A stretch of DNA of 27,940 nucleotides from positions 1 through 27,940 of IMG/VR virus record IMGVR_UViG_3300032116_001059; one strand, given 5' to 3'. Position 1 is the first letter of the stretch; each line of letters opens with the position of its first letter. The notes beneath the pieces are model-generated. The model ran no database searches. It was not told the origin of the DNA and saw nothing but the letters and a program-made list of their open reading frames with translations. This document shows positions 1 through 23,800 of this stretch, piece by piece. The position numbers were made by a program, and so were the translations under genes. This DNA comes from a virus.

Positions 1-70
1 GGTGGCGAAAGCGCGTTGGTTCGCTAGTGGCAGAGTTTTTCCCCGGCTTCGCTTCCACCGAGGTGCCCGC

Positions 71-1315
71 TTGAAGGTTCAGACGGTCCCGATTGGCAGC
101 GTCGTGCCTTATGCGCGTAACCCGCGCAGAAACACCGGCGCAGTGGCCAAGGTAGCCGCCAGCCTGCGCGAATTTGGCTGGCGCCAGCCGATCGTCGTGG
201 ACGCCGACATGGTTGTCGTCGTTGGCCACACGCGCCTGCTGGCCGCGCAGCAGCTTGGTATGGCCGAGGTGCCTATCCACGTCGCGGAAGGGCTGACGCC
301 GAACCAGATCAAGGCGTATCGCCTGGCCGACAACCGGGTGCATGAAGAAGCCGAGTGGGACGACGAGCTCCTGGCGCTGGAGCTGGGCGACTTGCGCGAC
401 GCCGGGCTGGATCTGGCGCTGACTGGCTTTGACGACGACGAGCTGGCGCGGCTGACGATTGAGCAAACTGAGGGCCTGACTGACGCCGACGACGTGCCGG
501 AACCGCAAGACGAAGCGGTGTCGGTGCTGGGCGACGTTTGGCTGCTTGGCCGGCACCGGATCGTCTGCGGCGATTGCACCGACGCGCTGGTGGTGGAGAA
601 GGCGCTCAACGGCGTGAAGCCGCACCTCATGGTGACGGACCCGCCGTATGGGGTGGAATACGACGCTGACTGGCGGAACAAGGCCATGCGAAGCGACGGC
701 TCGCCTAGCGCTGGTCGCGCGGTTGGCAAAGTCCTGAATGACGACACGGCGGACTGGCGCGAAGCCTGGGCGCTGTTCCCCGGCGACGTGGTTTACGTTT
801 GGCACGCCGGCAACAAAGCGCACGTCGTAGCTGAGAGCCTGATGGCGTGTGACTTTGGAATTCGTGCGCAGATCATTTGGGGCAAAAGCCAATTCGTGAT
901 TAGCCGCGGCGACTACCACCCGCAGCATGAGCCTTGTTGGTATGCCGTTCGCAAAGGCAAGACGGGCCACTACGAGGGCGGACGCAAGCAGTCCACTCTC
1001 TGGCAGATCGAGAAGCCTCGCAAATCCGAAACCGGCCACAGCACTCAAAAGCCCGTCGAGTGCATGAAGCGCCCGATCGAGAACAACAGCAGCCCAGGCC
1101 AAGCCGTCTATGAGCCTTTCTCTGGCTCTGGCACCACGATAATTGCCGCAGAAACTACCGGCCGCGCCTGCCACGCCATCGAGCTTAACCCGGTCTATGT
1201 CGACGTAGCTGTCCGCCGCTGGCAGGAGTTCACCGGCCAGCATGCCAAGCTGGAACGCACCGGCGAGACGTTTGCCGAAGTCGAAGCTCGCACCAAGACG
1301 CAAGAGGCCGCGTGA
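71..1315 (+). CDS. ParB-domain DNA methyltransferase (N4/N6, beta class)
   Basis: An orphan phage DNA methyltransferase with an N-terminal ParB/sulfiredoxin-like domain (about residues 1-110, with NPRRN and GHTRLLAAQQLG motifs) and a C-terminal N6-adenine or N4-cytosine methylase domain. The catalytic motif DPPYGVEYD (about residues 190-198) comes before the SAM-binding motif FSGSGTT (about 350-356), the beta-class order; HSTQKPVE lies between them. It probably modifies phage DNA, perhaps against restriction; the target site cannot be read from the sequence. The frame is open to the left edge with a GTG at base 2, but I prefer the TTG at 71: it has a GAGG seven bases upstream and begins right at the ParB homology, whereas the preceding 23 residues look like no domain. 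The stop overlaps the next gene (GTGA). Methylase and fold are sure; start moderately so. Confidence 0.9.
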   Translation: MKVQTVPIGSVVPYARNPRRNTGAVAKVAASLREFGWRQPIVVDADMVVVVGHTRLLAAQQLGMAEVPIHVAEGLTPNQIKAYRLADNRVHEEAEWDDELLALELGDLRDAGLDLALTGFDDDELARLTIEQTEGLTDADDVPEPQDEAVSVLGDVWLLGRHRIVCGDCTDALVVEKALNGVKPHLMVTDPPYGVEYDADWRNKAMRSDGSPSAGRAVGKVLNDDTADWREAWALFPGDVVYVWHAGNKAHVVAESLMACDFGIRAQIIWGKSQFVISRGDYHPQHEPCWYAVRKGKTGHYEGGRKQSTLWQIEKPRKSETGHSTQKPVECMKRPIENNSSPGQAVYEPFSGSGTTIIAAETTGRACHAIELNPVYVDVAVRRWQEFTGQHAKLERTGETFAEVEARTKTQEAA

Positions 1316-7755: not shown

Positions 7756-7758
7756 TCC

Positions 7759-8505
7759 GTGGCAGTAGCAGACACCGCACCGGCCGTTCATCTGTTTCGC
7801 CAGCCGGCGGGGCTGATGATCGGTGCGCCTATGTATGGCGGTGTCTGCTACGACAACTTTCTGCTGGGCGTCTTTGATCTTCAGCGCGAATGCTACGACC
7901 GGAAGATCCCGCTTTCGCTGCACACCATCCGCAACGAGAGCCTGATCCCGCGCGCACGCAACCGCGTGTTGGCGGACTTCCTTGAGAGCCACTGTTCGCA
8001 CCTAGTGTTTATCGACTCTGATATAGGCTTCACCGGCCGCGACGTGCTGCGGCTGGTGGCGCACGACAAGGCGCTGATCGGCGCCACCTACGCGAAGAAA
8101 AACCGCGAACGCTATGATCCCGCTTTCGTGCCAATGCCGCACGGCGTCACCGTGACAAAGTCTGAGCTGGTCGAGGTGCAATGCCTCCCCGGCGGCTTCA
8201 TGTGCATCTCGCGCGACATGGCGCAGCGCATGGCTGGCGCGTATCGGGAACTCTGGTATCGCGACGGCAACACGGTAGAGCGGCGAGTGCTGGACCTGTT
8301 CGGCACCTACACCGACGACGAGACGCGCCAGTATTGGAGCGAGGATTACGCTTTCTGCCAGCGGTGGCGCGCCATCGGCGGCGACGTGTGGCTCGATCCG
8401 AACATCCTGCTCACTCACAACGGCACGACGGTGTTTGACGGCGATCCGCGCTCCGTGTTCGTCAACCCGCCGGAACCGGCCAAGGCGAAGGCGCGCGGCA
8501 AATGA
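7759..8505 (+). CDS. Glycosyltransferase-like protein (GT-A fold) in the head gene cluster
   Basis: A 248-residue protein that looks like a GT-A glycosyltransferase, using a nucleotide sugar and a divalent metal. Evidence is an N-terminal Rossmann-like opening (LMIGAPMYGGVCYDNFLLGV), a Glu-Ser-x-x-x-x-Arg-Ala-Arg-Asn segment (NESLIPRARNRVL), and a DxD-type metal motif FIDSDIGF with Asp86 and Asp88. Later LPGGFMCISRDM and SEDYAFCQRWRAIGG resemble the acceptor/catalytic half of family 2-like or Anp1-like enzymes. It starts with GTG three bases after the decoration gene and its end overlaps the next structural gene by four bases (ATGA), so it is expressed with head proteins. It may glycosylate a virion protein or host surface sugar; substrate unknown. 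The motif is seen, the function inferred. Confidence 0.7.
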   Translation: MAVADTAPAVHLFRQPAGLMIGAPMYGGVCYDNFLLGVFDLQRECYDRKIPLSLHTIRNESLIPRARNRVLADFLESHCSHLVFIDSDIGFTGRDVLRLVAHDKALIGATYAKKNRERYDPAFVPMPHGVTVTKSELVEVQCLPGGFMCISRDMAQRMAGAYRELWYRDGNTVERRVLDLFGTYTDDETRQYWSEDYAFCQRWRAIGGDVWLDPNILLTHNGTTVFDGDPRSVFVNPPEPAKAKARGK

Positions 8506-10533: not shown

Positions 10534-11133
10534 ATGGCCGACGAAACGCCTGTCGTGTTCAGCGCGCGCGAAACCGAGTGGTTCACGCCACCGAGATCGC
10601 CGCGCTCCTACCTCCTCCAGCCACTCACCTACCGCGAGCGTTCGGCCATGCGCCGCGAGCTGCGGCGCGTCGGCGGTATCGCGCCGGAGCGTGCGGCGCT
10701 GCTGGAGGGAATGCGCGAGGCGTTGCGCCAGGTGCAGCCGGCCAACCTCGACGCCTGCCTTGCCGTCGTGGACGAGGCCGAGGCGGCACCGGAAGATACC
10801 AGCGTGCAGGCGCGGCTGGCGGTGGTGGAGCAGGCTGTGGCGGACGTGCCGGCCTATGCCGCGCTGATCGACGCGCAGATGCGCCACAACGACGCGGTGC
10901 CTTACGTCGCGGCGCGCTACGGCCTGCGCGACTGGCGCGGCCCTGGCCTGCCGGTGTTCGCGCGGGTGGACGGCGTGGTGCCTGACGATCTGCTGGAAGA
11001 ACTGCCGGCGGTGGAGATCGGCATTGTCGGCTGGCGTGCCTACGTGCTGGCCATGCTTGGCCGGAGTGCGGAGGGAAACTCCGCGGCGCTCTCGCCGTCG
11101 CACGAGAGCCCGACGCCTACGCCGGAGGGCTGA
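10534..11133 (+). CDS. Tail assembly chaperone (gpG-like)
   Basis: A 199-residue helical, acidic protein between the tail tube and tape measure genes, the classic position of the tail assembly chaperone. It opens with FSARETEWFTPPRSPRSYLL and the LTYRERSAMRRELRR segment typical of these proteins, followed by helices. Near its 3' end the in-phase heptamer G GGA AAC at 11073-11079 permits a -1 shift into an open frame that runs to 11390. The unshifted product ends in a Ser/Pro/Thr tail (SPSHESPTPTPEG). Confidence 0.75.
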   Translation: MADETPVVFSARETEWFTPPRSPRSYLLQPLTYRERSAMRRELRRVGGIAPERAALLEGMREALRQVQPANLDACLAVVDEAEAAPEDTSVQARLAVVEQAVADVPAYAALIDAQMRHNDAVPYVAARYGLRDWRGPGLPVFARVDGVVPDDLLEELPAVEIGIVGWRAYVLAMLGRSAEGNSAALSPSHESPTPTPEG

Positions 11134-11390
11134 GGCCCGTTGATGGCTCTGACTGGCTGGTGGCTGGCGAGCCTTGGCCGGGCGACAACCCACGGCTCAC
11201 GATCGGGCCGGAATGGCATGAGTTCGTGCGGCTTTGGGCGGCCTGTCGCGGTGAGGCCGGCACCGCTCACTGGCCGGACGTTGGCGGCGTGGCGGATCAA
11301 GCGGCGTGGGTTGTCGATGCGTTCGCCACGCTCACGTCCATCGACGCCGACATGCGCGAGGCTGATCGCAAATTGCGAGGGCGCGGATGA
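10534..11390 (+). CDS. Tail assembly chaperone frameshift product (gpGT-like)
   Basis: The product expected when ribosomes slip by -1 at 11073-11079: 182 residues shared with the G-like chaperone followed by about 103 residues read in the other frame (GEPWPGDNPRLTIGPEWHEF, DVGGVADQAAWVVDAFATLT), total near 285. The minus-one frame is open without a stop from the slip site to TGA 11388-11390, and has no good start of its own: the GTG at 11160 lacks a ribosome site. The extension carries the Trp-rich, acidic features of 'T' domains that bind the tape measure. Gene order G, GT, tape measure is as in lambda. Its stop overlaps the next start (ATGA). Confidence 0.8.
11073..11079 (+). promoter_or_regulatory. 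-1 ribosomal frameshift slippery site
   Basis: GGGAAAC, a canonical X-XXY-YYZ heptamer in the right phase (codons GGA AAC for Gly-Asn of the 0 frame), close to the GGGAAAG site of lambda G/GT. After slipping, tRNAs repair on GGG AAA and reading resumes at CTC 11079. A GC-rich, potentially structured stretch (CTCCGCGGCGCTC) follows. Seen directly; efficiency unknown. Confidence 0.8.
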
Positions 11391-12112
11391 GCCTCCTACA
11401 CGCAAGCGTCACCGGCAACCTTCGCGCCGCCATGGATCAGCAGGTGCGGCAGGTGGCCGGTGCGCTGCGGCGCGCAGTGGCGACGGCCGGCAAGCAGACA
11501 CAGGACGACTTGCGCGCACAGGCGCGCGGTGCCGGCTTCCGCGACGGCGGCCGTGCGCTGGCGAATAGCTGGCGGCTGAACGTCTACCCGCGGCCGGGCG
11601 TTGGCGCCACGTCGCTGCGGCCGGCGGCGTTGGTGACGAGCCGGATGGCCGACGTGGTGCGGATTTTTGAGACGGGCGCGGTGATCCAGGCCAAGGGCCG
11701 GCGCTACCTCGCCATTCCGACGCCGGTGAACCGCGTGGGCAATCGCCGCAGCAATGACGGCCAGTTTCCCGTGCGCGTGACGCCGCAAGAGATGTTCCGC
11801 GCCGGCGGCTTTGTCCGGCCGACTGACAATCCCGCCGTCAAGCTGTGGTGTCTGCCGCTGCGCACCGAGACGACGAAGCGCGGCCGCATCCAGCTATTCG
11901 CGGGCCGCTATGCGCGGGTGCTCACGGGCAACCGCAAGGGCGCCGAAGCCATGCGCCGCCAGTTTGCTGCCGAGCGGAGGTTCGTCCCGATGTTCTTCCT
12001 CATGCGCCAGGTGTCGCTCCGCAAGCGGCTGAACGTGGCGCAGGTGGAAGCACGCGCGCCGGGCCGGTTCGCGTCGGCGGCACAGTCTGAACTGGCGAGG
12101 GTGGCACGATGA
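11387..12112 (+). CDS. Tail-associated protein (DUF6441-like)
   Basis: A 241-residue basic protein between the chaperone fusion and the tape measure gene. It starts with a helix (LHASVTGNLRAAMDQQVRQV) of the kind found in HK97 gp10-like minor tail components, then has RRYLAIPTPVNRVG and a RFVPMFFLMRQVSLRKRLNV segment. The last part (LRKRLNVAQVEARAPGRFAS) is typical of the proteins grouped as DUF6441 in alphaproteobacterial phages, as far as I recall; I cannot verify this by search. Its function is unknown; a tail completion or connector role is suggested by position. Both ends overlap neighbours (ATGA). Confidence 0.55.
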   Translation: MSLLHASVTGNLRAAMDQQVRQVAGALRRAVATAGKQTQDDLRAQARGAGFRDGGRALANSWRLNVYPRPGVGATSLRPAALVTSRMADVVRIFETGAVIQAKGRRYLAIPTPVNRVGNRRSNDGQFPVRVTPQEMFRAGGFVRPTDNPAVKLWCLPLRTETTKRGRIQLFAGRYARVLTGNRKGAEAMRRQFAAERRFVPMFFLMRQVSLRKRLNVAQVEARAPGRFASAAQSELARVAR

Positions 12113-15100
12113 GCGGTAGCCGTCCCACCGTTGGCATCCGCATCTCGGCCGAGGGTGCGGAGCAGGTAAAGCGCCAGCTCGAGGCGCTTGGCCCGGCCGG
12201 CGAGCGCGCATTTCAGACGATCCAGGCCGCCAGCCGGAACGCGCAGCCGGAGTTTCAGAAGCTCGGCACGTCGGTGGACGTGGTGCAGCGCGCTTTCATC
12301 GGCATGGGCGGCTCGCTCGGCAGCGTCGGCTCCGTGTTCACCGGCGTGTCTGCCGTGGCTGGCGGCCTCACCACGGCCATCGTGGCGCTCGGCGCGGCTG
12401 CGGCTACCAGCGCCGTCGCGATCGCCAAGGCCGGCGACGAGGCCACCGCCACAATGGCGCGGCTTGCCTCCTCCACCGGCGGCGTGGCGCAGGCGACGCA
12501 GGTCTACGAGCAGCTTTTCAAGCTGTCGCAGCAAACCGGCGTGGCGGTGGCGGAGAGTGCCGGCGCGTTCTCCCGTTTTGCCGTTGCGGCAAAGGAAATC
12601 GGCGGCACCAACGCTCAGGTGCTGCAACTGGTGTCCGGCATCCAGAAGGCCGGCATCGTGGCGGGCACCAGCGCGGCCGAGGCGGCGGCGTCGGTGCAAC
12701 AGCTTGGCCAGGCGCTGGCTTCCGGCACGCTCCAAGGCGACGAGCTGCGCTCTTTGCTGGAGAACATGCCGCAGCTTGCGCAGAAACTGGCGCAGGAACT
12801 CGGTGTGTCGATCGGCCAGCTTCGGCAAATGGGCAGCGAGGGCAAGCTCACCGCGGACACGGTGTTCCCGGCGCTGCTCCGCGCGACTGAGAAGATCGGC
12901 GCCGAGTTTGAGAAGATGCCGGTCACGATGTCCCGCGCCAAGGACATACTGCTGGCGGCGACGCAGGACTTTGGCGAGCGGCTGGACCGGATCACTGGCC
13001 TGTCGCAGACGTTCGCGCGGTTCATGCAGCAGGGCGCGGCGGCGCTGAGTGCGGCGGGCCGTGTGATCGCGCCCAGCGAGCGTGAGGCGGCGGATCAGGC
13101 TGTCGCGGCGGCTGAACGCCAGAGGGCCAATGTTGCGCGGCAAGTGGCCGCTGAGCGTGCCGCCAGCGCATACGGTGACGTGTCGCCGGGCTTGCAGCAG
13201 GCGATGGAAATTGCCGACGCCGATCTTCAAGCGGCGCTTGCGCGGCAGGCCGAGATCCGCCGCGAGGCGCGCGAGATGGAGCGCGCGGAGGCTGCGGACG
13301 CTGCGCGGCAGTCCGCCGAGGCGGCACGCCAGCGCGCACAAACAGACTTCGACAAGCTGCGCACTGATCTGGACAAGGAATTTAAGCTCCGCAAGGAGAA
13401 CGCGGATCGGCTGAAGATCATCGAGCGCGCGGAAGCCACCGGCGCCATCACCAGCGCGCAGGCAGCGGCACAGCGCAAGCTGGCCAACGATGACTTGGCC
13501 GATGGTCTGAAGAAGCTTGCCGACGCCCACAAGCAGGTGGGCAAGGAAGCCGCCGACGCCGATGCGCACGTCAAGGAATACCTGAAGGATCAGGAGCGCA
13601 TCGCCAAGGAAGCGGCGAAGGCGCAGGAGCAGGCAGCCGAGGCGATCAGGAAATACCACGAGCGCAGCTTCGATGCCGTGGTGTCCATCGGCGAGCGCGC
13701 TTTCGAGCGGTTGGGCGATGCGATGGTGGACGCCTTCGTGTCGGGCCAGGGCGCGGCGGTGAACTTCGGCAACGTGGCGCGCGGCATCGCGGCGTCTGTG
13801 GTGACGGACTTCGCCAAGCTGGCGATCGTGAACCCGATCCTCAACAGCCTGTTCGTGGGCTCTGGCGGGCCGCGGCCGACGCTGAGCGCGGCGTTCGGTG
13901 GCAGCAGCACCGGGATCGGCATGGGCGACTTGCTCGGCCTGTCGTCGCTGCTGCCGAAGGACGGGTTGCTCGGCTCGCTTGGCATCAGCGGCTCCGGGAT
14001 TGGAAGCTCAATTTTTGGCACCGCCGGCACTGTCGGCGGTTCGTTTGCGGATTTGGGCGGTATCACCATCGCAGGCACCGCTGGCACGCCCGGGCTGCTT
14101 GGCACTTACGGCACGTCGCTGATGGGCGGCTCGCAACTGACGCTCGGCGGCGCTTTCGGCAGCATCGGCGGCGGCCTAGCCATCTCCAGCCTGCTCAACT
14201 CCGCCCTCGGCCGCAGTTCGGCACAGTCCACCAACGGCATGATCGGCTCCGGCCTTGGCGGCCTTGCTGGCTTCCTGATCGGCGGCCCGCTCGGTGGTCT
14301 TATCGGCGGCACGCTGGGCGGGCTCGGCGGCGGCCTCATCGGCCCCGGCGAGTCCGTCCGCGGCTACGGCTTCCGCCTCCAGTCCGCCGGCTGGGGGCCA
14401 GACGCCACGCCTACGAACGAGATGGCCAGCAGCCTCCTCCCGATCAGCCGCCAGTATTACAACGAAAGCGGCGCGCAGATGTTTGCCGCGGCGGATCAGC
14501 TTGTCGCGGCCACCAATGCCTACCTCGCCGCGCGCGGCCTGACGGTGGGCGGCGTCTCTGTGGTGGGCGGCAACAAGAACGGCGCGGATTACTCCTGGGC
14601 GGACGCCGGCAACCTGAACGAAGCATTCACCCGCCTGCGCTTCGGCGCCGCCAACGACAACCAGCTGGCGGGGGCGCTGACAGGCCGGACATTCTCCGAT
14701 CTCGGTGGCCTGCAGCAGTTCGTGGAAGGCTTCACCGCCGTCCGCGACACCATCCGCAACCTCACCGAGACGCCGGCGCAGAAGCTGGCGCGGCAGTTGG
14801 AGGAGATCGGCAAGCAGTTTGACGACCTCAGCGCCAAGGCCAAGGAATACGGCTTGAGCGAGGAAGGGCTTGCTGACGCGCGCCAGAAGGCCCTGGACGT
14901 CGTGAAGGCGCAGCAGAACAACGAAGGCCAAGCGATCCGCGCCTACCTCGATCGTTTGAGCACGAACGATCCCAGCGCCTCGCCGGTGGATCGTTTTGCC
15001 GCGGCGCAGGGCATATTCGGTGCCGATCTGGCGGCCGCGCAGTCGGGCGACGCGGCGGCCCTGGCACGGATCACGGGCAGCGCAGACACGCTGCTTGGCG

Positions 15101-15312
15101 CCGGCCGCGCTGCCTACGCCTCCGGCCCGCAGTTCGCCGCGCTGCGCTCCATGGTGGTGTCCAGCCTCGAGAACCTGCCGGCGGTGCGCGGCCTGCCGAC
15201 GAGCCAGCAGCCGATCGACATGGTGCCGCTGATTGACGAATTGGCGGCGCTCAAGATGCAGGTGGCCGAGCTGCGTGAGGAGCTGCGCACGGCGCGGCTG
15301 CGTGCGGCATGA
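12109..15312 (+). CDS. Tail tape measure protein
   Basis: A 1067-residue protein that sets tail length and is ejected with DNA. The N-terminal region has the 'tape measure domain' pattern, seen in SGTLQGDELRSLLENMPQLA and VSIGQLRQMGSEGKLTADTV (about residues 205-255). Residues about 315-520 are charged, heptad-like helices rich in Ala, Arg and Glu (predicted coiled coil), followed by the SFDAVVSIGERAFERLGDAM segment common in the tape measures of this type. A Gly-rich hydrophobic stretch (about residues 709-745, GGLAGFLIGGPLGGLIGG) could span membrane during DNA entry. It ends in another helix (LIDELAALKMQVAELREELR). At 1067 residues the tail would be roughly 160 nm by the usual 0.15 nm per residue rule. 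Starts and ends in ATGA overlaps. Confidence 0.95.
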   Translation: MSGSRPTVGIRISAEGAEQVKRQLEALGPAGERAFQTIQAASRNAQPEFQKLGTSVDVVQRAFIGMGGSLGSVGSVFTGVSAVAGGLTTAIVALGAAAATSAVAIAKAGDEATATMARLASSTGGVAQATQVYEQLFKLSQQTGVAVAESAGAFSRFAVAAKEIGGTNAQVLQLVSGIQKAGIVAGTSAAEAAASVQQLGQALASGTLQGDELRSLLENMPQLAQKLAQELGVSIGQLRQMGSEGKLTADTVFPALLRATEKIGAEFEKMPVTMSRAKDILLAATQDFGERLDRITGLSQTFARFMQQGAAALSAAGRVIAPSEREAADQAVAAAERQRANVARQVAAERAASAYGDVSPGLQQAMEIADADLQAALARQAEIRREAREMERAEAADAARQSAEAARQRAQTDFDKLRTDLDKEFKLRKENADRLKIIERAEATGAITSAQAAAQRKLANDDLADGLKKLADAHKQVGKEAADADAHVKEYLKDQERIAKEAAKAQEQAAEAIRKYHERSFDAVVSIGERAFERLGDAMVDAFVSGQGAAVNFGNVARGIAASVVTDFAKLAIVNPILNSLFVGSGGPRPTLSAAFGGSSTGIGMGDLLGLSSLLPKDGLLGSLGISGSGIGSSIFGTAGTVGGSFADLGGITIAGTAGTPGLLGTYGTSLMGGSQLTLGGAFGSIGGGLAISSLLNSALGRSSAQSTNGMIGSGLGGLAGFLIGGPLGGLIGGTLGGLGGGLIGPGESVRGYGFRLQSAGWGPDATPTNEMASSLLPISRQYYNESGAQMFAAADQLVAATNAYLAARGLTVGGVSVVGGNKNGADYSWADAGNLNEAFTRLRFGAANDNQLAGALTGRTFSDLGGLQQFVEGFTAVRDTIRNLTETPAQKLARQLEEIGKQFDDLSAKAKEYGLSEEGLADARQKALDVVKAQQNNEGQAIRAYLDRLSTNDPSASPVDRFAAAQGIFGADLAAAQSGDAAALARITGSADTLLGAGRAAYASGPQFAALRSMVVSSLENLPAVRGLPTSQQPIDMVPLIDELAALKMQVAELREELRTARLRAA

Positions 15313-16916
15313 TGTTCGGCCCCGTCGCCGCCGCGCCAATTGCGGCCTTCGCCTTCGGCATCACCGCCACCGGTCCCGCCACCAGCGCCACGGCCGAGAC
15401 GGCGCGCACCGAGCCGTCCGTGTGGCTGGTGGAGATCGTCACCGACAGCGCCACCGTGGCCGTCTCCGACCGCGGTTGGCTGAAGGAGCCCTCAGACACC
15501 GCCCCCATCAGCAAATACCCGCCCCGCCTGCTGGAGCCACCAGCCCTTGAGCTGTCGATCCCGGTCTATCCCTCTCAGGAGCGTCGCACCTCGATCAGCG
15601 CCGGTGAACTGCGGATCGCCAACGGCGATGGTGGCGTGAACAGCCTCACTGGCGACTGGACTGTGGCGGGACGTGCCGTAACGATCTACCGCGCGCCGCA
15701 CCGCCGCCCCGTACACGCACCGCGCTCCACCTTCGAGCGCGTGGCCACGCTCAAGACAGCGGCAGCCTTCGGCGGCACGTCCACACTGCGCATGCCGCTC
15801 CAGTCCGGTGCGAAGAACCTCAACGATTCCGCCTGCGGCACCTACACCGGCGCCGGCGGTATCAACGGTGATGCCGCGCTGGCTGGCGCCAACATCCCGC
15901 GCCTGTTCGGCCTGGTGCGCAACATCGTGCCGGTGCAGGTGGAGGCCGGGAAGCTGATCTACCAGCTCCACGACGGCGCCATGTCGCAGGTGTTGGCCGT
16001 GCGCGATGCCGGTGTGGCGCTGGTGCCGGGCGGCGACGTGGCCAGCTATGCCGCGCTCCAGTCCGCGACGGTAGCCGCGGGAACGTTCCAGACATGTCTT
16101 GCCACCGGTCACTTCCGCGTCGGCGCGGTGCCCGTGCGCCTCACCGCGGACGCGCGCGGCTCGACGGCCTTCGGCGGCTATCCGGCGACGGCCGGCGCGC
16201 TCGCGGCACAGATCCTCAGCGTCTCCACCGGCACCACCGTGAGCTCGACGGCCTTCGCGGCATGGCGCGCCGCGGAGGCTGGCATCGTGGTGCGCGGCGG
16301 CACGGCCGCAGAAGCGCTGGACAGGCTTGCAGCAGGCCTCGGCACGGCTTGGTGGGGTACCGACACGAATGGCAACTGGATCGGTGGCGCCGTCACCGCG
16401 CCGGAGACCCTGGGCACCGGCATCTCCATCCGCGAGTCCATGCTGGCCGCCCCGCCTGAGGAAGTTGCCGGTGCGCTGCCGCCGTGGTGGCGGGCCCGTG
16501 TCGGCTACCAGCGCCTCGACCTGGTGCAGTCCGGCGCCGACCTGGTGACGTCCGTGTCGGCGGCGGATCGCGATTACTACAGCCGCCTCCAGCGCACCGC
16601 CGTCGACAGCGACACCGCGGTGCAGTCCGCCTATCCGCTGGCGGTGGACGGCGAGGACGTGCCGGGCGTGCTGGACAGTGCCGGCGAGGCGACCGCGGTG
16701 GCGGCTGACCTGCTGTCCTTGTTCAAGGTGCCGCGTCGCTCCTGGCTGGTGCGCCTCGGTCCGAACGCTGGTGGCCTGCCGTGGTGGCAGTTCGGCCTGG
16801 GCACCCCTGTGCGCCTCACCTGGAAATACGCCTCCGCGCTCACCTCCGGCCGTACACTCCTGGTGCGCTCGATCAGCGCGCGCGGCGACAACGCAGAACT
16901 GGAGCTGTGGGGCTGA
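15309..16916 (+). CDS. Tail tip / baseplate protein, unknown family
   Basis: A 535-residue protein directly after the tape measure, thus expected at the distal tail (hub or distal tail protein region). I do not recognise a family. Visible features: a short Ala/Thr-rich start (GPVAAAPIAAFAFGITATGP), then beta-rich text with an adaptor-like segment SIPVYPSQERRTSISAGELR (about residues 77-96), and a C-terminal half with many short strands and a final RLTWKYASALTSG, LLVRSISARGDNAELELWG reminiscent of beta-sandwich ends in distal tail proteins. It starts with MM; the first ATG overlaps the previous stop (ATGA), the second lies at 15312. Its stop overlaps the next start (TGATG). Confidence 0.6.
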   Translation: MMFGPVAAAPIAAFAFGITATGPATSATAETARTEPSVWLVEIVTDSATVAVSDRGWLKEPSDTAPISKYPPRLLEPPALELSIPVYPSQERRTSISAGELRIANGDGGVNSLTGDWTVAGRAVTIYRAPHRRPVHAPRSTFERVATLKTAAAFGGTSTLRMPLQSGAKNLNDSACGTYTGAGGINGDAALAGANIPRLFGLVRNIVPVQVEAGKLIYQLHDGAMSQVLAVRDAGVALVPGGDVASYAALQSATVAAGTFQTCLATGHFRVGAVPVRLTADARGSTAFGGYPATAGALAAQILSVSTGTTVSSTAFAAWRAAEAGIVVRGGTAAEALDRLAAGLGTAWWGTDTNGNWIGGAVTAPETLGTGISIRESMLAAPPEEVAGALPPWWRARVGYQRLDLVQSGADLVTSVSAADRDYYSRLQRTAVDSDTAVQSAYPLAVDGEDVPGVLDSAGEATAVAADLLSLFKVPRRSWLVRLGPNAGGLPWWQFGLGTPVRLTWKYASALTSGRTLLVRSISARGDNAELELWG

Positions 16917-17686
16917 TGGGCGCGCTTCTGTCATGGGCGAACCTCGCCGACGCCGGCACGGTGACGGTCTCCAGCCAAGCCTCCGACCTCGGGCCAGCCG
17001 GCCTGCTCACGCCGCAGATGAACGACGTGTGGAGAAGCGGCAGCCTGGGTGCGGCGGCGGTCTGGGTGGAGGTCGACCTGGGCAGTGCCAAGACGGTGAA
17101 CCTGGTGGCAATCGGAGCGCCACGGGATGGCGTGCTGCCCACGTCCGCCGCCACGATCCGGCTCACGGCCGGTTCTGCGTCGGGCGGCACGACGGCGCTG
17201 GATACCGGCGCCGCCACCTTCACCATGTCGCCCTGGGGCGTCTGGGGCTGGCGCAGCACGGCGGGCGTCTCCGCGCGCTACTGGCGCCTGACCTTTGGCA
17301 TGTCCGCCGGCGATAGCTACCTGCAACTCGGGCGCGTCTGGGTGGGGGCGGCGCTGATCACCGCGCGTGGCTATGCCTTCGGCGCAGCCCGCGCCGGTCG
17401 TGATCCCGGCACCGTGTCGCGCACCGGCATGACCGGCACGCGCTATGCCACGCTCGGCCGGCCCTATCGCATCGAGCGCTTCACCCTGCCAGCACTCACC
17501 AGCGCTGAGGCAGCCCAGATGGAAGCGATGGCGATGGCGGTGGGCACCACCGGACAAGTCTTCGCCGCGCGCTCGGATGCCGCGCTCGGCCAGGGGATTT
17601 TCGGAGCTTTCACCGAGCCTACCACCGTGGCGCGGCCCTATCCGCAGGTCTGGACGTCTGACCTCCAAATTGAAGAGGACGCTTGA
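16916..17686 (+). CDS. Tail protein with discoidin-like N-terminal domain
   Basis: A 256-residue protein starting at ATG 16916 (one-base overlap with the previous stop; the frame is open further upstream but only as shadow). Residues about 10-140 look like an F5/8 type C (discoidin) jelly-roll: VWVEVDLGSAKTVNLVAIGA, then a second half ending RYWRLTFG, the usual closing strand of such sugar-binding folds. Residues about 155-256 (GRPYRIERFTLPALTSAEAA, RPYPQVWTSDLQIEEDA) resemble the C-terminal half of distal tail proteins. It may bind a glycan or simply connect tail and fibres. The next gene's ATG follows its TGA without a gap. Domain guess from pattern only. Confidence 0.6.
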   Translation: MGALLSWANLADAGTVTVSSQASDLGPAGLLTPQMNDVWRSGSLGAAAVWVEVDLGSAKTVNLVAIGAPRDGVLPTSAATIRLTAGSASGGTTALDTGAATFTMSPWGVWGWRSTAGVSARYWRLTFGMSAGDSYLQLGRVWVGAALITARGYAFGAARAGRDPGTVSRTGMTGTRYATLGRPYRIERFTLPALTSAEAAQMEAMAMAVGTTGQVFAARSDAALGQGIFGAFTEPTTVARPYPQVWTSDLQIEEDA

Positions 17687-18532
17687 ATGGGGACACCGAA
17701 CGTCGTCGCCGATCGGGTGCTGGTCACATTTGGCAGCACCGCATCGACAGATCCTTATATCTTCACGTCGGCCGTGGCGGGCTACCTGGCGCCCGGCGCG
17801 GCTGGCGTGCCCAATGGCGCGCGTGTGGCCTACGTCGCCGTGAACAGCCAAACTGCACCGACGCTGTTTGAGGTCGGCGAAGGCGTGTTCACAGCTGCCA
17901 CGTCGCAGATCACCCGCGCTACCATCCACCGTACGAATACCGGCGGCACTACGGCCGTGACTTGGGGCGCAGGGCCGAACTTCCTCTTCCTGGCCCCCTC
18001 CGCCGCCCGCCTGCCGGTGCTCGAGACAGACGGCCGCCTGACGCTCACCGGCGGCCTGAATATTACCGGCGGCGGCGCCACAGTGGCGGGCAATGCCACC
18101 GTCACCGGCACCATGACCGTCAACAGCGGTCTGACGGTCGCCGGAGGCGGCGCCAATATCACAGGCAACGGCCTGGTGACCGGCAACATGACCGTCTCAG
18201 GGAACGTCATTACCTCGCCTGGCACCGGTCTCAATCAGGCCGTGATCACCAACCAATTCTCTCCCACCTGGGGAACCACCGGCGCGATGGAATTCCCCAG
18301 CGCCTTCAAGATGAAATGGGGCACCGGCACCGTCACGAGTGGATCCGGCTCGGTGACGTACGCGGCCGCGTTCCCGGTCGCCACGCTGAACGTGCAGCTC
18401 ACGATCTCGGCTGGTGGCAATCCCTCGACGCAGGACGCTCTGATCCTGGGCGCGACAACCGCCGCTGGCTTCGGGGTGTGGGGCAGTTCCACGACAAACG
18501 TCGCGTTCAACTGGCTCGCCGTCGGCTACTGA
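17687..18532 (+). CDS. Tail fibre-like protein with Gly/Thr repeats
   Basis: A 281-residue fibre-type protein. The N-terminal 105 residues (VVADRVLVTFGSTASTDPYI, then GEGVFTAATSQITRATIHRT) form a domain found at the start of fibre proteins in phages of alphaproteobacteria. Next is a run of short repeats (LNITGGGATVAGNATVTGTM, TVNSGLTVAGGGANITGNGL) at about residues 120-180, with strand-turn periodicity typical of a trimeric beta-helix or a collagen-free shaft. The C-terminal 80 residues (MKWGTGTVTSGSGSVTYAAA, then AFNWLAVGY) look like the knob/receptor-facing domain seen at ends of phage fibres. The gene is followed by a hairpin block before the next gene. Confidence 0.75.
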   Translation: MGTPNVVADRVLVTFGSTASTDPYIFTSAVAGYLAPGAAGVPNGARVAYVAVNSQTAPTLFEVGEGVFTAATSQITRATIHRTNTGGTTAVTWGAGPNFLFLAPSAARLPVLETDGRLTLTGGLNITGGGATVAGNATVTGTMTVNSGLTVAGGGANITGNGLVTGNMTVSGNVITSPGTGLNQAVITNQFSPTWGTTGAMEFPSAFKMKWGTGTVTSGSGSVTYAAAFPVATLNVQLTISAGGNPSTQDALILGATTAAGFGVWGSSTTNVAFNWLAVGY

Positions 18533-18539
18533 CTCCCCT

Positions 18540-18580
18540 GCCGGCGGGTGGCCGGCTCCGCAGCGTCGTGACGACGCCGC
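18540..18580 (+). other. Two-hairpin intergenic block, copy 2
   Basis: Directly seen: a perfect stem GCCGGC (18540-18545), loop GGGTG, GCCGGC (18551-18556), then at 18560-18580 a stem GCGTCG (18563-18568), loop TGA, CGACGC (18572-18577) with an outer GC/GC pair past an A/C mismatch. Copy 1 at 9280-9320 has GCGCCG/CGGCGC at this point, so a C-G pair became T-A with both sides changed. Spacing to the flanking stop and start matches copy 1 within one or two bases. Confidence 0.7.
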
Positions 18581-18601
18581 ATCCCTTGGACGGAGGCCCA
18601 C

Positions 18602-18988
18602 ATGGCCAACAACCTCACCGACTACGGCGAGAACCAGCTGCTCGTCTGGCAGCTTACCACCACCGCCATCACCCGACCCACAGCCTGGTTTCTTGGCGTC
18701 GGCACTGGCAACACCGACATCACCCTCACTGGCGAGCCCAGCGGCAACGGCTATGCGCGCCAGTCGGTGGCCTTCACCGTGACGAACGACACGGCGACGA
18801 ACAGCGGCGCCATCACCTTCGGTCCGAACACCACGAGCAACTGGGGCACGATGGCAAGCGTGGCGATCTTCGACGCGGCCACCGGCGGCAACTGCCTCTG
18901 GGCCGGCGCGCTCACGGACGCCAAGGCAATCGCCGTGGGTGACTCGCTGACGATCGCCGCCAGCGCGCTCACCGTCTCGCTGGCCTGA
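18602..18988 (+). CDS. Small tail fibre / virion protein
   Basis: A 128-residue protein, beta-rich and Thr/Ser/Ala-rich. The opening NNLTDYGENQLLVWQLTTT and the AWFLGVGTGNTDITLTGEPS, TAWFLG-type text match a small phage fibre family (proteins that start 'MANNLT.Y.EN..' and describe a single beta domain), often found beside tail fibres. The C-terminus ends in IAVGDSLTIAASALTVSLA. It has its own ribosome site (CGGAGG, 18591-18596) and sits after the two-hairpin block rather than being coupled. Role as a fibre or decoration protein is inferred from context. Confidence 0.65.
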   Translation: MANNLTDYGENQLLVWQLTTTAITRPTAWFLGVGTGNTDITLTGEPSGNGYARQSVAFTVTNDTATNSGAITFGPNTTSNWGTMASVAIFDAATGGNCLWAGALTDAKAIAVGDSLTIAASALTVSLA

Positions 18989-19006
18989 GCCTAGGGGGCC
19001 GCTGCC

Positions 19007-19735
19007 ATGGCGAACATCAAGATATCGGATCTTCCAGCCGCGTCCTCCGTGGCGGCGGCCGATCTGTTCGAGGTTTCGCAAGGCAGCGGCACGCTTACCT
19101 CGCGCAAGGCCACCGGCACGCAGGTGCAGTCCTTCGTGCTGGGCTCCTACGCCGGTGCGACGTCGATCACCACACTGGGCACGATCGGCACCGGGACGTG
19201 GCAAGGTTCGGTGGTGGCCGGCCAGTATGGCGGCACCGGGGTCAACAACTCCGGCAAGACGATCACGCTAGGCGGCAATTTCGCGACCTCTGGCGCCTAT
19301 GCGCTGACGCTGACGCTCACGGCAGCCACGACCGTGACGCTGCCGACGACGGGCACCTTGGCCACGCTGGCCGGCGCTGAGACGCTCATCAGCAAGACGC
19401 TCAAGGGCCAGTCCGTTCAATACTACAATAGCGGCACCACCTCGGCGCTGGACTACACCAACGGCTCTCACCAGCGTTGGGCGCCGACCGGTTCGGTGTC
19501 GCTGACCGTGACGAACTGGCCCGCATCTGGCGTGCTGGGTGAATTGCTCATTGAAGGTATCAACCTAGGCAGCGCCACGATTACTTGGCCTACGGTAAAC
19601 TGGATCAAGAGCGACGGCACGACGACGACGACGTTTGCGAGCAACGGCGTGACGTTGCAGGCCACTGGCACGGATTGGGTTTTTCTGTGGACTCGTGATG
19701 GGGGCACGACGGTTTACGGGAAGATCGTGCGATGA
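19007..19735 (+). CDS. Tail fibre / receptor-binding domain protein
   Basis: A 242-residue fibre protein. It begins with the very common fibre-attachment text KISDLPAASSVAAADLFEVS and GTLTSRKATGTQVQSFV (residues 4-45), then a repeat-like shaft (GTIGTGTWQGSVVAGQYGGT, TLGGNFATSGAYALTLTLTA) at about 55-125, and a C-terminal beta domain ending TDWVFLWTRDGGTTVYGKIV, as in fibre head domains. A GGGGG stretch precedes the ATG. Its last codons overlap the RCC1 gene (ATGA), so the two are made together and the propeller may be an add-on at the tip of this fibre. Confidence 0.75.
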   Translation: MANIKISDLPAASSVAAADLFEVSQGSGTLTSRKATGTQVQSFVLGSYAGATSITTLGTIGTGTWQGSVVAGQYGGTGVNNSGKTITLGGNFATSGAYALTLTLTAATTVTLPTTGTLATLAGAETLISKTLKGQSVQYYNSGTTSALDYTNGSHQRWAPTGSVSLTVTNWPASGVLGELLIEGINLGSATITWPTVNWIKSDGTTTTTFASNGVTLQATGTDWVFLWTRDGGTTVYGKIVR

Positions 19736-20841
19736 GTTTGCTGGTGAGGTTTGCGGGGTTAAGCAGCGCCCCGATCTCCGCTGGTTTTTCACTCTATAGG
19801 TGGGGCGTTAATGATAGCGGGCAGTTGGGGGATAATACCGTCCTCGACAAAAGTAGCCCTGTGCAAATCGGTACTTTGGTGGATTGGACTTCAGCAAGCG
19901 CAGGGCCTACACACAGCCTTGCAGTCAAAACAGACGGCACGTTGTGGGCGTGGGGTTCTGGGGCTAATGGTAGGTTGGGAGACGGGACCGTAGTCAGCAA
20001 AAGCAGTCCTGTGCAAATCGGCACTTTGACGGATTGGGCGTCGGTAAGTGCCGGATCATCGCACAGCCTCTCACTCAAGAATAATGGCACGTTGTGGGCG
20101 TGGGGTTCTGGGGCTGAAGGTGTGCTTGGAGACGGGACAACCTCCAGCAAAAGCAGCCCTGTGCAGATCGGCACGTTAACGGATTGGGCATCGGTAAGTG
20201 CCGGGGCCACCCACAACCTTGCAGTGAAGACAAATAACACCTTATGGGCGTGGGGAAACGGGTCAAACGGGCGACTTGGAGACGGGACAATAATTGGCAA
20301 AAGCAGTCCTGTGCAGATCGGCACTTTGACGAATTGGGCGTCGGTAAGCGCGGGCGGCAACCATAGTCTTGCGGTCAAGACGAATGGCACGTTGTGGGCG
20401 TGGGGGTTTAATAACTCCGGACGACTTGGCGACGGCACAACCGTGAGTAAAAGCAGCCCCGTTCAGATCGGGACATTGACGGATTGGGCGTCCGTAAGTG
20501 CCGGGGGTGGCCACAGCCTTGCGGTCAAGACGAACGGCACGCTGTGGGCGTGGGGGTCTGGAACTAATGGTGAACTTGGCGATAGCGCAACCGAGAATAA
20601 AAGCAGCCCCGTTCAGATCGGGACATTGACGGATTGGGCGTCCGTAAGTGCAGGCATCGCCCACAGCCTTGCGGTCAAGACGAACGGCACGCTGTGGGCA
20701 TGGGGGTCTGGAACTAACGGGCGACTTGGAGACGGCACAACGGTCAGCAAAAGCAGCCCCGTGCAGATCGGCACTTTGACGAATTGGGACAGCGGTGTAT
20801 CTATCGGGACGGCATCTTCAACCTCCGGCGCATTCCAATAA
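19732..20841 (+). CDS. RCC1-type seven-repeat beta-propeller protein (putative receptor binding)
   Basis: A 369-residue protein made of seven tandem 50-residue RCC1 repeats after a 20-residue leader. Each has the consensus LWAWGsGxNGrLGDGT-xxx-KSSPVQIGTLTDWASVSAG-xx-HSLAVKTNGT (split here by its variable sites). RCC1 propellers bind proteins, DNA or glycans; within a phage tail region this is probably a surface-binding domain. The seventh repeat is cut short (DSGVSIGTASSTSGAFQ), and the leader plus this end would close the ring. Between repeats the core KSSPVQIGTLT is invariant, while positions 6-11, 15-19 and 39-40 vary, as expected of loops on one face. The gene has clearly lower GC than its neighbours and repeats 5 and 6 are nearly identical in DNA, pointing to recent duplication or transfer. 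It overlaps the upstream fibre gene (ATGA) and, at the 3' end, the glycosyltransferase frame. Confidence 0.9.
   Translation: MSLLVRFAGLSSAPISAGFSLYRWGVNDSGQLGDNTVLDKSSPVQIGTLVDWTSASAGPTHSLAVKTDGTLWAWGSGANGRLGDGTVVSKSSPVQIGTLTDWASVSAGSSHSLSLKNNGTLWAWGSGAEGVLGDGTTSSKSSPVQIGTLTDWASVSAGATHNLAVKTNNTLWAWGNGSNGRLGDGTIIGKSSPVQIGTLTNWASVSAGGNHSLAVKTNGTLWAWGFNNSGRLGDGTTVSKSSPVQIGTLTDWASVSAGGGHSLAVKTNGTLWAWGSGTNGELGDSATENKSSPVQIGTLTDWASVSAGIAHSLAVKTNGTLWAWGSGTNGRLGDGTTVSKSSPVQIGTLTNWDSGVSIGTASSTSGAFQ
19792..20790 (+). repeat. 150-bp tandem repeats encoding RCC1 blades
   Basis: Six full and one shortened unit with exact 150-base spacing (starts 19792, 19942, 20092, 20242, 20392, 20542, 20692). Units 5 and 6 match almost base for base over the core and next-blade start, while codon-level differences are larger among units 1-4. 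They are coding repeats, not CRISPR. Confidence 0.9.
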
Positions 20842-21833
20842 CTCATCCCCTCGACATCGCCTTAACAGCGGCGATTAACGGCCACTCCGACATCAGCGAA
20901 GCCATTCTCCGCGAACAACCACAAGACGATGCGCGCGTCCTTTTTAACCTTGGTTGGCACGAGATGCGCCACGGCAGGCTTAACTCTGGCCTCCGCCACA
21001 TGGACGCCGGCCGCTTCATCAACTGCTTCGGCCTACCACGCATCCCCGGCCCAATCTGGAAAGATGAGCCGCTTGAAGGCAAGACACTCCTGTTTCGTTG
21101 CGAAGGTGGCTACGGCGATCAAATTCTGAACTTCCGTTTCGCCAAAGATTTTCAAGATAAGGGAGCGCGTGTTCTAATCTCTTGCGCCCCTAGCCTCAAG
21201 CCTTTCTTTGCACGTCACGGTTTTGTATGTGCAGACAACGAAGTTGTCAGCGGATTGCACTACGACTATTGGGTGCCTGCTATGAGTGCGGCCCACATTC
21301 TTGGCTATGACCAAGATACCATTTCAGGCGCACCTTATCTGTCCGCAGAACCGCGTCAACTTTACGCCAAACCCGGCACGTTGCGCATCGGCCTTCGCTG
21401 GGCTGGCTCGCCTGAGTTTGAGCATCAGCAACACCGCGTCTTCGATCCGGCGCCGCTGTTCGAGTTGCACGCGCTGCCGGGCGTCACGCTCTACAGCCTG
21501 CAGCGCGACGACAACCTCGTGGATGGCCTGCCGTTTGCGGATCTGCGGGACCAGATCAAGACCTGGGAAGACACGGCCAGCGTGATCGCCGGCCTCGATC
21601 TCGTCATCACGTCCTGCACCAGCGTGGCGCACCTGGCCGCGGCGCTGGGCGTCGAGACGTGGGTGATCGTGCCGGTGCTGCCCTACTACGTCTGGGCTGT
21701 CCCTGGTGATCGATCTGCTTGGTATCGCTCGGTGCGGTTGTTCCGACAGGCAACCTACGGCGATTGGACCGCGCCATTGGCGGCGGTGAGTGAAGCGTTG
21801 CGCGAGCGCGTGGCGTTGAAGGAGGCAACATGA
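20784..21833 (+). CDS. TPR/glycosyltransferase family 9-like protein (GT-B)
   Basis: A 349-residue protein resembling the TPR-linked family 9 (heptosyltransferase-like) enzymes. Signals: LFRCEGGYGDQILNFRFAKD (about residues 103-122), LRIGLRWAGSPEFEHQQHR (200-218), TLYSLQRDD (235-243), and the nucleotide-sugar-binding segment LDLVITSCTSVAHLAAALGV (271-290) followed by SAWYRSVRLFRQ. The first 90 residues hold a single degenerate TPR. It may add sugar to the propeller or fibres, or alter host LPS; acceptor unknown. The start is doubtful: TTG 20784 is the first in-frame candidate, inside the RCC1 gene, without a ribosome site; relatives of this type would plausibly begin near THPLDIALTAA, where this sequence has ATA (20838) or ATT (20832). 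The next ATG is at 20964. Bases before about 21420 are lower in GC than those after, so the gene looks mosaic. Ends in ATGA overlap. Confidence 0.7.
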   Translation: MGQRCIYRDGIFNLRRIPITHPLDIALTAAINGHSDISEAILREQPQDDARVLFNLGWHEMRHGRLNSGLRHMDAGRFINCFGLPRIPGPIWKDEPLEGKTLLFRCEGGYGDQILNFRFAKDFQDKGARVLISCAPSLKPFFARHGFVCADNEVVSGLHYDYWVPAMSAAHILGYDQDTISGAPYLSAEPRQLYAKPGTLRIGLRWAGSPEFEHQQHRVFDPAPLFELHALPGVTLYSLQRDDNLVDGLPFADLRDQIKTWEDTASVIAGLDLVITSCTSVAHLAAALGVETWVIVPVLPYYVWAVPGDRSAWYRSVRLFRQATYGDWTAPLAAVSEALRERVALKEAT

Positions 21834-22324
21834 GCCGGTATGCCTACGTTGAGAACGGCGCTGTCGTGGAAGGCCCGATGCCGCTGCCAAAGAACTGGGC
21901 CAACGTCAGCGGGCTGGATCTGCTGGACGCGGAACAGCTCCAGGCAATCGGCTGGCTGCCGTGGCGGTTTGTGGAAATTCAGGCCGAGGTGCTGACGGGC
22001 TCGACGGTCGAAGTGTTTCCCACTGAGGTGGTCGAAACGCAGACGGGCCGCGATCGCACGCCGGAGGAGATCGCGGCGGCACTGGACGACTGGCGCCGCG
22101 GTATGTCGGTGACGCCGCTGCAGATCCGCCGCGCGCTGCTGGCACAGGGCCTGCTGGACGACGTGACGGCTTTTGTTGAACAGGCCGATCTTGAGACGCG
22201 CATGGCCTGGGAATATGCCGTGCAGATCGACCGCACCAACGCGCTGATCGGTGCCGCGGCCGAGGCCATTGGCGCGACGGCGGCAGACGTAGACGACTTG
22301 TTCCGCCTCGCGGCAACCCTGTAA
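21830..22324 (+). CDS. Small tail-associated protein, unknown function
   Basis: A 164-residue protein downstream of the glycosyltransferase. N-terminal text RYAYVENGAVVEGPMPLPKN and FPTEVVETQTGRDRTPEEIA resembles the small accessory proteins that follow fibre genes in many phages (tail fibre assembly type), with a helical C-terminal half (TPLQIRRALLAQGLLDDVTA, then LFRLAATL). This later half matches the 'pass one argument per residue' helices of tail chaperones only loosely. ATGA overlap at its start. No catalytic motif is visible. A role in fibre assembly or tail binding is inferred from position only. Confidence 0.5.
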   Translation: MSRYAYVENGAVVEGPMPLPKNWANVSGLDLLDAEQLQAIGWLPWRFVEIQAEVLTGSTVEVFPTEVVETQTGRDRTPEEIAAALDDWRRGMSVTPLQIRRALLAQGLLDDVTAFVEQADLETRMAWEYAVQIDRTNALIGAAAEAIGATAADVDDLFRLAATL

Positions 22325-22339: not shown

Positions 22340-23800
22340 GTGGCGTTCGATGGCGTCCGCATAACAGAGGCCGGCGACTACCGCGTCACGGAGACGGCCA
22401 GCGACCTGCGTATCACCGAAGCCTTCGACGGCGCGGTTGCCGCGTCGGCGGCGCTGTCCGGTGCGGGTGCGCTGGCGCTGGCGGCGGGTGCCAGCCGGGC
22501 GACAAGCGCCACGCTGGACGCTTCTGGCGCGCTGGCCGCGTCGGCTGGCATTTTGCGGCCTGGCACGGCGGCGCTGGACGCCACAGGGACGCAGACAACC
22601 GCAGCCGTCGCAAGCCTTGAAGCATCTGCCAGCCTGCCGGCCGTGGGCGCGCTCACTGCCGCCGCAGATCGCAGCCGGGCCGCTGCCGCCGCGCTGGACA
22701 GCGCCGGCACGCTCGCCGGCACAGCGCAAGCAACCGCATCGGCCACGGCCGCGCTTGCCAGTTTGGGCACGCTGGCGGCGGCTGGCGATCGCACGCGGGC
22801 CGCTGCGGCGGCACTGGATGGCTCCGGCACGCTGGCCGGTGCTGCCGGCGCCAGTCGGGACACAGCCGCCGCACTAGCCTCGGCTGGCGCGCTCACTGCC
22901 GCCGCCTCGGCCAGCCGCGACACATCGGCCACTCTCAGCGCGTCCGGCACGCTATCCGGCGCTGCGGATCGCTCCCGCGCCGCAGGCGCCACACTGGACG
23001 CGGCCGGCAACCTGACCGGCGCGGCCACGTCCTCCAGGGCCACAAGCGCCGCGCTCTCGGCCTCCGGCACGCTCACCGCCGCGGCGATTGCCGGCGACGT
23101 TGGCGCCTTCCTTGAAGCATCCGGCACGCTGGCGGCGTCTGCTGGTGCAGCGCGCACCGGCGCGGCAGTTCTGACAGCCGCCAGCAACGCCACCGCGTCC
23201 GCTGGCCTGACGGCCGCCGGCTTGGCCAGCCTGGACACTGCCGGCGCGCTTGCTGCGGCGGCCGATCGCACGCGCGGCACATCGGCCTCGCTTTCCTCTG
23301 CGGCGACGCTGGCGGCCACAGCTACGGCCGCGCGCGGGGCAGCCGCACCACTGGCAGCAGCCGCCACGCTGGCAGCGACAGCCGCGGCCGATCTCACGGC
23401 AGCCGCGGCGCTCAACGCAACCGGCACTCTCCAGGCTGTCGGCGGCAAGACGCTGGAGGCTGGCGCCACATTCACAGCGGCAGGCGTATCCACGGCGGCA
23501 GCGGGGCGACTGCGCGGCACGTCGGCGGCTTTGTCGGCGGATGGCGCGCTTTCCGCCGCCGTGGCGCGCGCTGCTGGTGCTGCGGCGTTGCTTGCGGCCA
23601 GTGGCGCGATCTTTGCAACCGCCACGCGCACGGCCGGCGTCTCGGCGGTCCTGGCCGGCGCCGGCGCGATCGTCTGCGCCGCAAATGTGCGCCGGAACGC
23701 AGTGATCGCCTCCGCGACAGTCGGCCGGCCACTCACAGCCACGGCAGCAATCTCCCGGCCGATCACTCTGGCCGTCACGGTGGAGGGTAGAGCGGTATGA
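22340..23800 (+). CDS. Ala-rich protein of about 21 twenty-residue repeats, probable minor tail / fibre shaft
   Basis: A 486-residue protein with a strong AGGAGG ribosome site before its GTG start. After a 36-residue head (FDGVRITEAGDYRVTETASD) it is built of about 21 near-perfect 20-residue repeats with consensus A-[AT]-L-D-A-S-G-T-L-A-A-A-A-x-x-S-R-x-x-x, spanning residues 37-455. Every unit has Leu at 3 and mostly 9, Gly at 7, and a polar RSR-like turn, so a solenoid or stacked-sheet fold is likely. Unit 11 has 19 residues. The last 31 residues (ATVGRPLTATAAISRPITLA) are strand-rich. Similar 'L-x-x-x-G-x-L-x-A' repeats occur in minor tail proteins of other phages, so a tail shaft is likely; other folds are possible. 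The antisense strand is also open because of the GC-rich repeats. Ends in ATGA overlap. Confidence 0.65.
   Translation: MAFDGVRITEAGDYRVTETASDLRITEAFDGAVAASAALSGAGALALAAGASRATSATLDASGALAASAGILRPGTAALDATGTQTTAAVASLEASASLPAVGALTAAADRSRAAAAALDSAGTLAGTAQATASATAALASLGTLAAAGDRTRAAAAALDGSGTLAGAAGASRDTAAALASAGALTAAASASRDTSATLSASGTLSGAADRSRAAGATLDAAGNLTGAATSSRATSAALSASGTLTAAAIAGDVGAFLEASGTLAASAGAARTGAAVLTAASNATASAGLTAAGLASLDTAGALAAAADRTRGTSASLSSAATLAATATAARGAAAPLAAAATLAATAAADLTAAAALNATGTLQAVGGKTLEAGATFTAAGVSTAAAGRLRGTSAALSADGALSAAVARAAGAAALLAASGAIFATATRTAGVSAVLAGAGAIVCAANVRRNAVIASATVGRPLTATAAISRPITLAVTVEGRAV
22448..23704 (+). repeat. 60-bp tandem coding repeats
   Basis: About 21 units of 60 bases, each coding a 20-residue period (one unit of 57). 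DNA identity is lower than amino acid pattern identity, so the array is old and held by selection on the protein rather than recently amplified. Confidence 0.75.

Follow-up and report, generated by a model that had tools for sequence, protein, structure and literature searches.

An RCC1-type propeller as a probable exchangeable tail adhesin, with a linked glycosyltransferase, in a temperate tailed phage

The RCC1-repeat protein described here is probably an exchangeable adhesin borne on the phage tail. We infer both its place in the virion and its binding to a receptor from sequence comparisons; as expected of a receptor-binding protein, its gene lies in the tail-fibre region and is exchanged with another adhesin module. 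The original prediction was of an adhesin in which a rigid scaffold carries a variable face. In support of it, a tail-fibre-type module takes the place of the gene in a sister phage, the RCC1 genes of relatives come after tail-fibre genes, and the repeats are joined to a T7-type fibre anchor in Pseudomonas phage PollyC. The same reading draws on a divergence exceeding that of the adjoining tail genes, on amino acid changes gathered in the loops of one face, on the order of long tail fibre, RCC1, RCC1 and glycosyltransferase (GT) genes in a cyanophage, on the presence of RCC1 proteins in the virions of coliphages and on the linkage to a GT with a predicted heptosyltransferase-like fold. If this reading is true, it adds a propeller class to the phage proteins for host recognition.

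The source was an IMG/VR virus fragment of 27,940 bases, which was treated in its whole length as the window. On the basis of its terminase, lambda-type portal, capsid, tape measure and integrase genes we considered it as a temperate tailed phage.

Table 1. Positions of the features in the window
Feature	Position	Strand	Remarks
ParB-N domain joined to N6/N4 DNA methylase	2..1315		5' of terminase
Second glycosyltransferase-like ORF	7759..8505		weak Anp1 match; within head gene cluster
Tail fibre protein, gp53-like C-terminal domain	17687..18532	+	PF21882 3.5e-7; phrog_1396
Fibre-associated protein, Gp80 family	18602..18988	+	PF23140 1.8e-29; phrog_240 labels it as head protein
Tail-fibre gene	19007..19735	+	5' part common to L087/L202, remainder replaced there
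Exchangeable cassette	19239..22093	+	in L202 replaced by DUF7483 tail-fibre-type module; low GC
RCC1 seven-bladed propeller (predicted), presumed tail adhesin	19732..20841	+	PF00415 x7; model Z 51.5 to HERC2 RLD
RCC1 unit cores (starts)	19849, 19999, 20149, 20299, 20449, 20599, 20749	+	unit at 20749 partial
GT9-like glycosyltransferase, helical (TPR-like) N-terminus	20838..21833	+	model Z 16 to 3TOV, TibC, WaaF; RCC1 linkage
Chaperone-like gene (name inferred from position)	21830..22324	+	phrog_6034, unknown function
Ala/Thr-rich protein	22340..23800		486 aa; short degenerate tandem repeats; GC about 0.75

The RCC1 gene and its predicted fold

The RCC1 gene encodes 369 amino acids, and its ATG overlaps the TGA of the preceding fibre gene (ATGA), in agreement with the start overlap originally predicted. 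Pfam recognized PF00415 in seven stretches with a score of 265.5 bits (cut-off 21.7), and the protein is built of the tandem repeats of about 50 residues that characterize the RCC1 repeat family (PF00415 / PF25390). The units are spaced by exactly 150 nt, and the prediction of seven 50-residue repeats is borne out, far beyond chance. The core KSSPVQIGTL is identical in all seven units; the T that was thought to close an invariant motif is present in the others and replaced by V in unit 1. Units 5 and 6, expected to be nearly identical in DNA, were indeed the top-scoring pair, with an identity of just 87% over 150 nt vs 67-79% for the remaining pairs. Between these two units long scaffold blocks are identical, and all 7 amino acid differences are confined to two loop segments.

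AlphaFold produced a confident propeller model (pLDDT 88.7), which in the fold search matched the HERC2 RLD2 with a Z of 51.5 over 351 residues; the protein is thus predicted to be a seven-bladed propeller. It shares the repeat family and the fold with eukaryotic RCC1, UVR8 and the HERC2 RLD (Z 48-51), but its sequence gives no sign of a function in Ran exchange, chromatin or UV-B.

RCC1-type propellers of tailed phages are already known from the coliphages W70, GAP32 and phAPEC6, which have the same best PHROG as the window protein (phrog_4219). RCC1 proteins were found by mass spectrometry in the virions of W70 (PMC11370258) and GAP32 (PMC5259590), and phAPEC6 encodes many of them (PMC7247149). 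They differ from our case in their interpretation, which is DNA condensation, and in that no GT partner is reported; between the coliphage proteins and the window RCC1 there was no sequence match at 1e-5, and the matches were structural alone (17-20% identity). As expected of adhesins, two proteins annotated as RCC1 rank with the most divergent ones in the phages fEgEco12 and Ecwhy_1 (PMC13070987).

We regard it as very improbable that the RCC1 proteins of phages serve to condense or order the packaged DNA, or that they target host regulators. A role in packaged DNA was suggested by the authors of the W70 and phAPEC6 studies (PMC11370258, PMC7247149), and both the PHROG category of phrog_4219, 'DNA, RNA and nucleotide metabolism', and the binding of the nucleosome by eukaryotic RCC1 are in its favour. 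However, the folds nearest to the model are generic RLDs (HERC2, UVR8) and not RCC1 itself, the loops diverge highly, and a near-identical phage has no RCC1 at all; the tail-fibre neighbours, the swap with a tail-fibre-type module and the T7-fibre fusion, all described below, also argue against it. Reading the matched phage RCC1 families as adhesins would correct both the filing of these PHROGs under DNA metabolism and the published guess of DNA condensation.

Exchange with other tail modules and tail-fibre neighbours

The window has its backbone in common with four close virus contigs. The identity is 99.0% over 6309-17735 for L088, and 97.5% over 8619-19239 (10.6 kb) for L087, whose match ends inside the fibre gene that precedes RCC1. 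A third contig, L202, matches L087 without any difference over 2.7 kb and extends further: neither RCC1 nor GT is present in it, and in their place there is a DUF7483 protein (PF24299, 2e-50) that matches phrog_24898, tail fiber (4e-39), and phrog_19943, virion structural. For the fibre gene of the window the Pfam search gave no match; its allele in L202 matches phrog_9017, tail fiber (4e-14).

The homology with L202 picks up again inside the chaperone-like gene, at position 22093. The N-terminal 70-90 residues of this gene product are 42-47% identical to the counterpart genes of RCC1-GT loci, and its C-terminal half (87-164) is 85% identical to L202; the gene is thus a mosaic, with a front like the cassette and a back like the backbone, and we placed the right border of the exchanged block inside it. 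The GC content of the RCC1-GT stretch is about 0.56 vs 0.69. As judged from these borders, the RCC1 and GT genes appear to behave, together with the front half of the chaperone-like gene, as one exchangeable cassette. The host-range cassette would span about 19239-22093, with the fibre gene contributing its 3' part, followed by RCC1, the GT9-like enzyme and the N-terminal half of the chaperone-like protein, and it would be exchanged in one piece against other adhesin modules, the DUF7483 fibre among them. The chaperone-like product may act as an adaptor in fibre assembly.

Low GC and block exchange would also suit cargo of lysogenic conversion, in which RCC1 would be a surface protein of the lysogen unrelated to the virion, and cellular RCC1 proteins are often large and multi-domain. 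This is highly unlikely, since the start of RCC1 overlaps the fibre gene, no signal peptide was apparent on inspection of its sequence, half of the chaperone-like gene travels along, and the same slot beside tail fibres is found in isolated cyanophages.

Another relative, L090, is 92-97% identical in the tail genes that follow the tape measure; it retains RCC1 with 69.6% identity over 125 aa vs 90-97% for the adjoining tail genes. It stops within RCC1, and L249, from the same metagenome, begins within GT; the two are probably the same phage, broken there probably because the repeats disrupt assembly.

Tail-fibre neighbours were searched for among the 40 genes directly 5' of GT-linked RCC1 genes. 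A match to phrog_9017, tail fiber, was present in 22 of them, and the remaining ones include genes with Collagen, Mtd_N (major tropism determinant) and Peptidase_S74 domains. In Pseudomonas phages PollyC and Ppr_SeaP2 the T7 tail-fibre N-terminus (E 6e-5, slightly under the Pfam cut-off) and RCC1 repeats are in a single ORF, which in PollyC sits after the internal virion protein gene. These phages resemble the window in having RCC1 repeats within a tail-fibre gene, and differ from it in the fusion to a T7-type anchor, the window RCC1 being a separate gene (about 25-31% identity). Along the genome of cyanophage S-SRM01, the genes for baseplate wedge and long-tail-fibre distal subunit are followed by RCC1, hypothetical, RCC1 and TPR/GT protein. 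In this phage (L325, NC_070963 216000-240842) there are three RCC1 genes beside the long tail fibre, and the region also contains genes for a 2OG oxygenase, a sulfotransferase, a sugar epimerase and another glycosyltransferase.

Tail beta-propellers with a known or supposed role in host recognition have been described in phiKZ (gp131) and phi11 (Gp45) (PMC4901313). Both are without RCC1 repeats: the C-terminal domain of gp131 (4GBF) matches our model with a Z of 15.9 and 12% identity, and the propeller of Gp45 is five-bladed and part of a trimeric RBP, the window one being predicted as seven-bladed.

Number of propellers and variable loops

Repeat units were counted with a repeat HMM in 94 ORFs, 93 from GT-linked loci plus that of the window. 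There were 7 units in 63 ORFs and 14 in 17, and 21, 28, 35, 42 and 49 in few or single cases, so that 88/94 had an exact multiple of seven. In 3 further ORFs 13 units were detected over a span of 13.9 units, i.e. one undetected unit short of 14. The number of blades in phage RCC1 is therefore, as far as repeat counts tell, fixed, and gain occurs apparently by whole propellers, which contradicts the earlier proposal that blade number can change by recombination. The blades of cellular RCC1 ORFs likewise number about 7n, one unit being split, and we consequently considered the rule of seven as general to the RCC1 family. The similarity of units was 0.60 within one ORF, 0.526 for the same blade in another ORF and 0.521 for different blades. 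The higher value within ORFs points to homogenisation inside the RCC1 gene, hence to a recombination that would act on the repeats leaving the blade count per propeller unchanged. A 2,484-aa protein (L028:58-7512) has 49 repeats, i.e. seven propellers, and one contig (L042:1-9330) carries about seven RCC1 genes arranged in tandem.

Comparing the loops across related phages was a check named with the original prediction, and we made it on 43 pairs of relatives 60-97% identical to each other. At unit positions 5, 7, 8, 38 and 39, a different amino acid was present in 0.70-0.76 of the comparisons; for position 18 the value was 0.66. In the model the strands are at unit positions 19-24, 31-36, 40-45 and 50-4; hence loops 5-18 and 37-39 share one face and 25-30 and 46-49 the other, whichever strand is innermost. 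The mean change was 0.45 for the former face vs 0.19 for the opposite one. In the units of the window, variation gathers at positions 6-11, 15-19 and 39-40, as originally predicted, and those positions also vary most among 883 units of relatives.

Variation in the loops of one face supports, on the modelled fold, a binding face. Variable loops on a conserved scaffold are what a receptor-binding protein should have; the trait is common to cellular RCC1 units, which vary at the same positions as phage repeats, and is hence a family trait and no proof by itself. In the adhesin reading the seven-bladed propeller would be carried on the tail by the preceding fibre, or next to it, and would act as a scaffold whose loops 5-18 and 37-39 presumably touch a molecule of the host surface.

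We also considered the RCC1 gene as a target of a diversity-generating retroelement, and dropped this reading since no reverse transcriptase (PF00078) was matched in the window and 19 related records, most of which are fragments.

The linked glycosyltransferase

Among the fetched viral loci, a GT was found downstream from RCC1 in 113/127 hits. With GT as the query, 67 of 76 loci had RCC1 at most 1.5 kb upstream and seven start at the contig end, so RCC1 is just 5' of GT in 67/69 assessable loci; the true exceptions are two (L317 and L321), with a partial GT match. The fetched loci are partly redundant, and 79 are left once identical GTs are removed. A GT accompanies 53 of 79 viral RCC1 loci vs 2/77 cellular ones, the 2 cellular cases being probably binned phage. 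When viral records without an RCC1-adjacent GT were searched whole, a GT was found elsewhere in 8/15. GT is present in 6 of 50,697 phage records, and 4 of these 6 hold the four best RCC1 matches; the pair is also present in marine virus AG-345-E08 and in BUCT-ZZ01. We found no earlier description of the pair, or of the RCC1-GT cassette, in the open-access journal literature covered by our search.

The model of the GT (pLDDT 92.3) begins with four helices, and its best fold matches were 3TOV (Z 16.3), TibC (16.2), WaaF (15.9) and WaaC (15.3), with other chains at 13 or less and the OGT and SPY chains ranking low. The model thus has a predicted heptosyltransferase-type GT-B fold, GT9/TibC-like. 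No Pfam family was above its cut-off, and PF01075 reached 13.4 bits vs 22, for which reason we call the enzyme 'GT9-like' with no membership of family 9. By sequence, the search of the PDB gave nothing useful alone, and the profile gave just LapB, a TPR protein (0.004). The motif E89-x-G-x-G-D94 is invariant. Residue 82 of the model pairs with residue 1 of WaaC and WaaF, so that D94 falls on position 13 provided that there is no gap; we take Asp-13, near the N-terminus of the GT domain, to be the catalytic Asp of WaaC. In TibC the catalytic Asp is Asp-110 (PMC4358343).

The likeness to TibC-TibA and AAH-AIDA-I, a hypothesis that preceded the fold search, consists in the pairing of a repeat adhesin with an enzyme of heptosyltransferase fold. 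In the former pair, TibC glycosylates the adhesin TibA (PMC4358343). The BAHTs have a four-Cys iron finger and an N-terminal beta-barrel (PMC4358343). The phage GT lies next to its putative substrate, the repeat protein, in the 113/127 hits above; we rejected it as a BAHT, since the iron-finger cysteines are missing in 43 aligned GTs (C260 is the only conserved Cys) and the model has the helical N-terminus instead of the beta-barrel.

The GT would most likely add a sugar to the newly made propeller during infection, before virion assembly, as TibC does on TibA; by this analogy, we give nearly an even chance to its acting on the RCC1 propeller. The pairing bears on whether phages glycosylate their own receptor-binding proteins.

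It is also conceivable, if unlikely, that RCC1 is the adhesin and that the GT alters the host surface (serotype conversion or superinfection exclusion), and with it the receptor targeted by its own cassette. The LPS heptosyltransferases WaaC and WaaF among the nearest solved folds, the temperate phage with its integrase, and the extra GT2, GT25 and methyltransferase genes of relatives, which also suit surface glycans, are consistent with this. However, the enzyme gene stands between the adhesin and the chaperone-like gene, within the tail operon, the pair also occurs in cyanophages whose observed features include no integrase, and so tight a linkage is more simply explained by a partner protein in common.

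With glycosylation of the propeller as the preferred reading, we put forward tentatively a widespread system in which propellers, added in whole steps from one to seven, are glycosylated by a dedicated GT9-like enzyme, giving a modified and exchangeable tail-tip glycoprotein; the enzyme would often be accompanied by further glycosyltransferases and methyltransferases. In relatives, methyltransferase, GT2-like and GT25 genes often come after the GT.

Two candidate acceptors were examined, and neither was supported, which weighs against the preferred reading. N-glycosylation of an N-G-T per repeat (HMW1C-like) was rejected, because Asn is present in 25% of phage vs 21% of cellular units, with no enrichment of N-X-T sequons. 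The Ser of [KR]SSPVQ is present in 90-91% of phage vs 14-28% of cellular units; the Ser-Ser pair was dropped as a glycan acceptor, since viral RCC1 genes that lack a neighbouring GT have it equally often, a class contaminated by de-duplication (the 8/15 records above do contain a GT). From these frequencies, the pair appears to be a signature of the phage lineage, whether or not a GT lies beside RCC1.

In relatives, the RCC1 stop and the GT start overlap as ATGA or GTGA, and in the window the junction (20838-20841) is ATAA; the GT of the window would hence start either at this ATA or at the TTG at 20784, inside RCC1, which is its first canonical in-frame start. The ATA, a point against the preferred reading, may represent a weak start, a mutation or an assembly error.

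Finally, the Ala/Thr-rich protein that follows the chaperone-like gene is 57-60% identical in relatives vs 93-98% for the adjoining genes.
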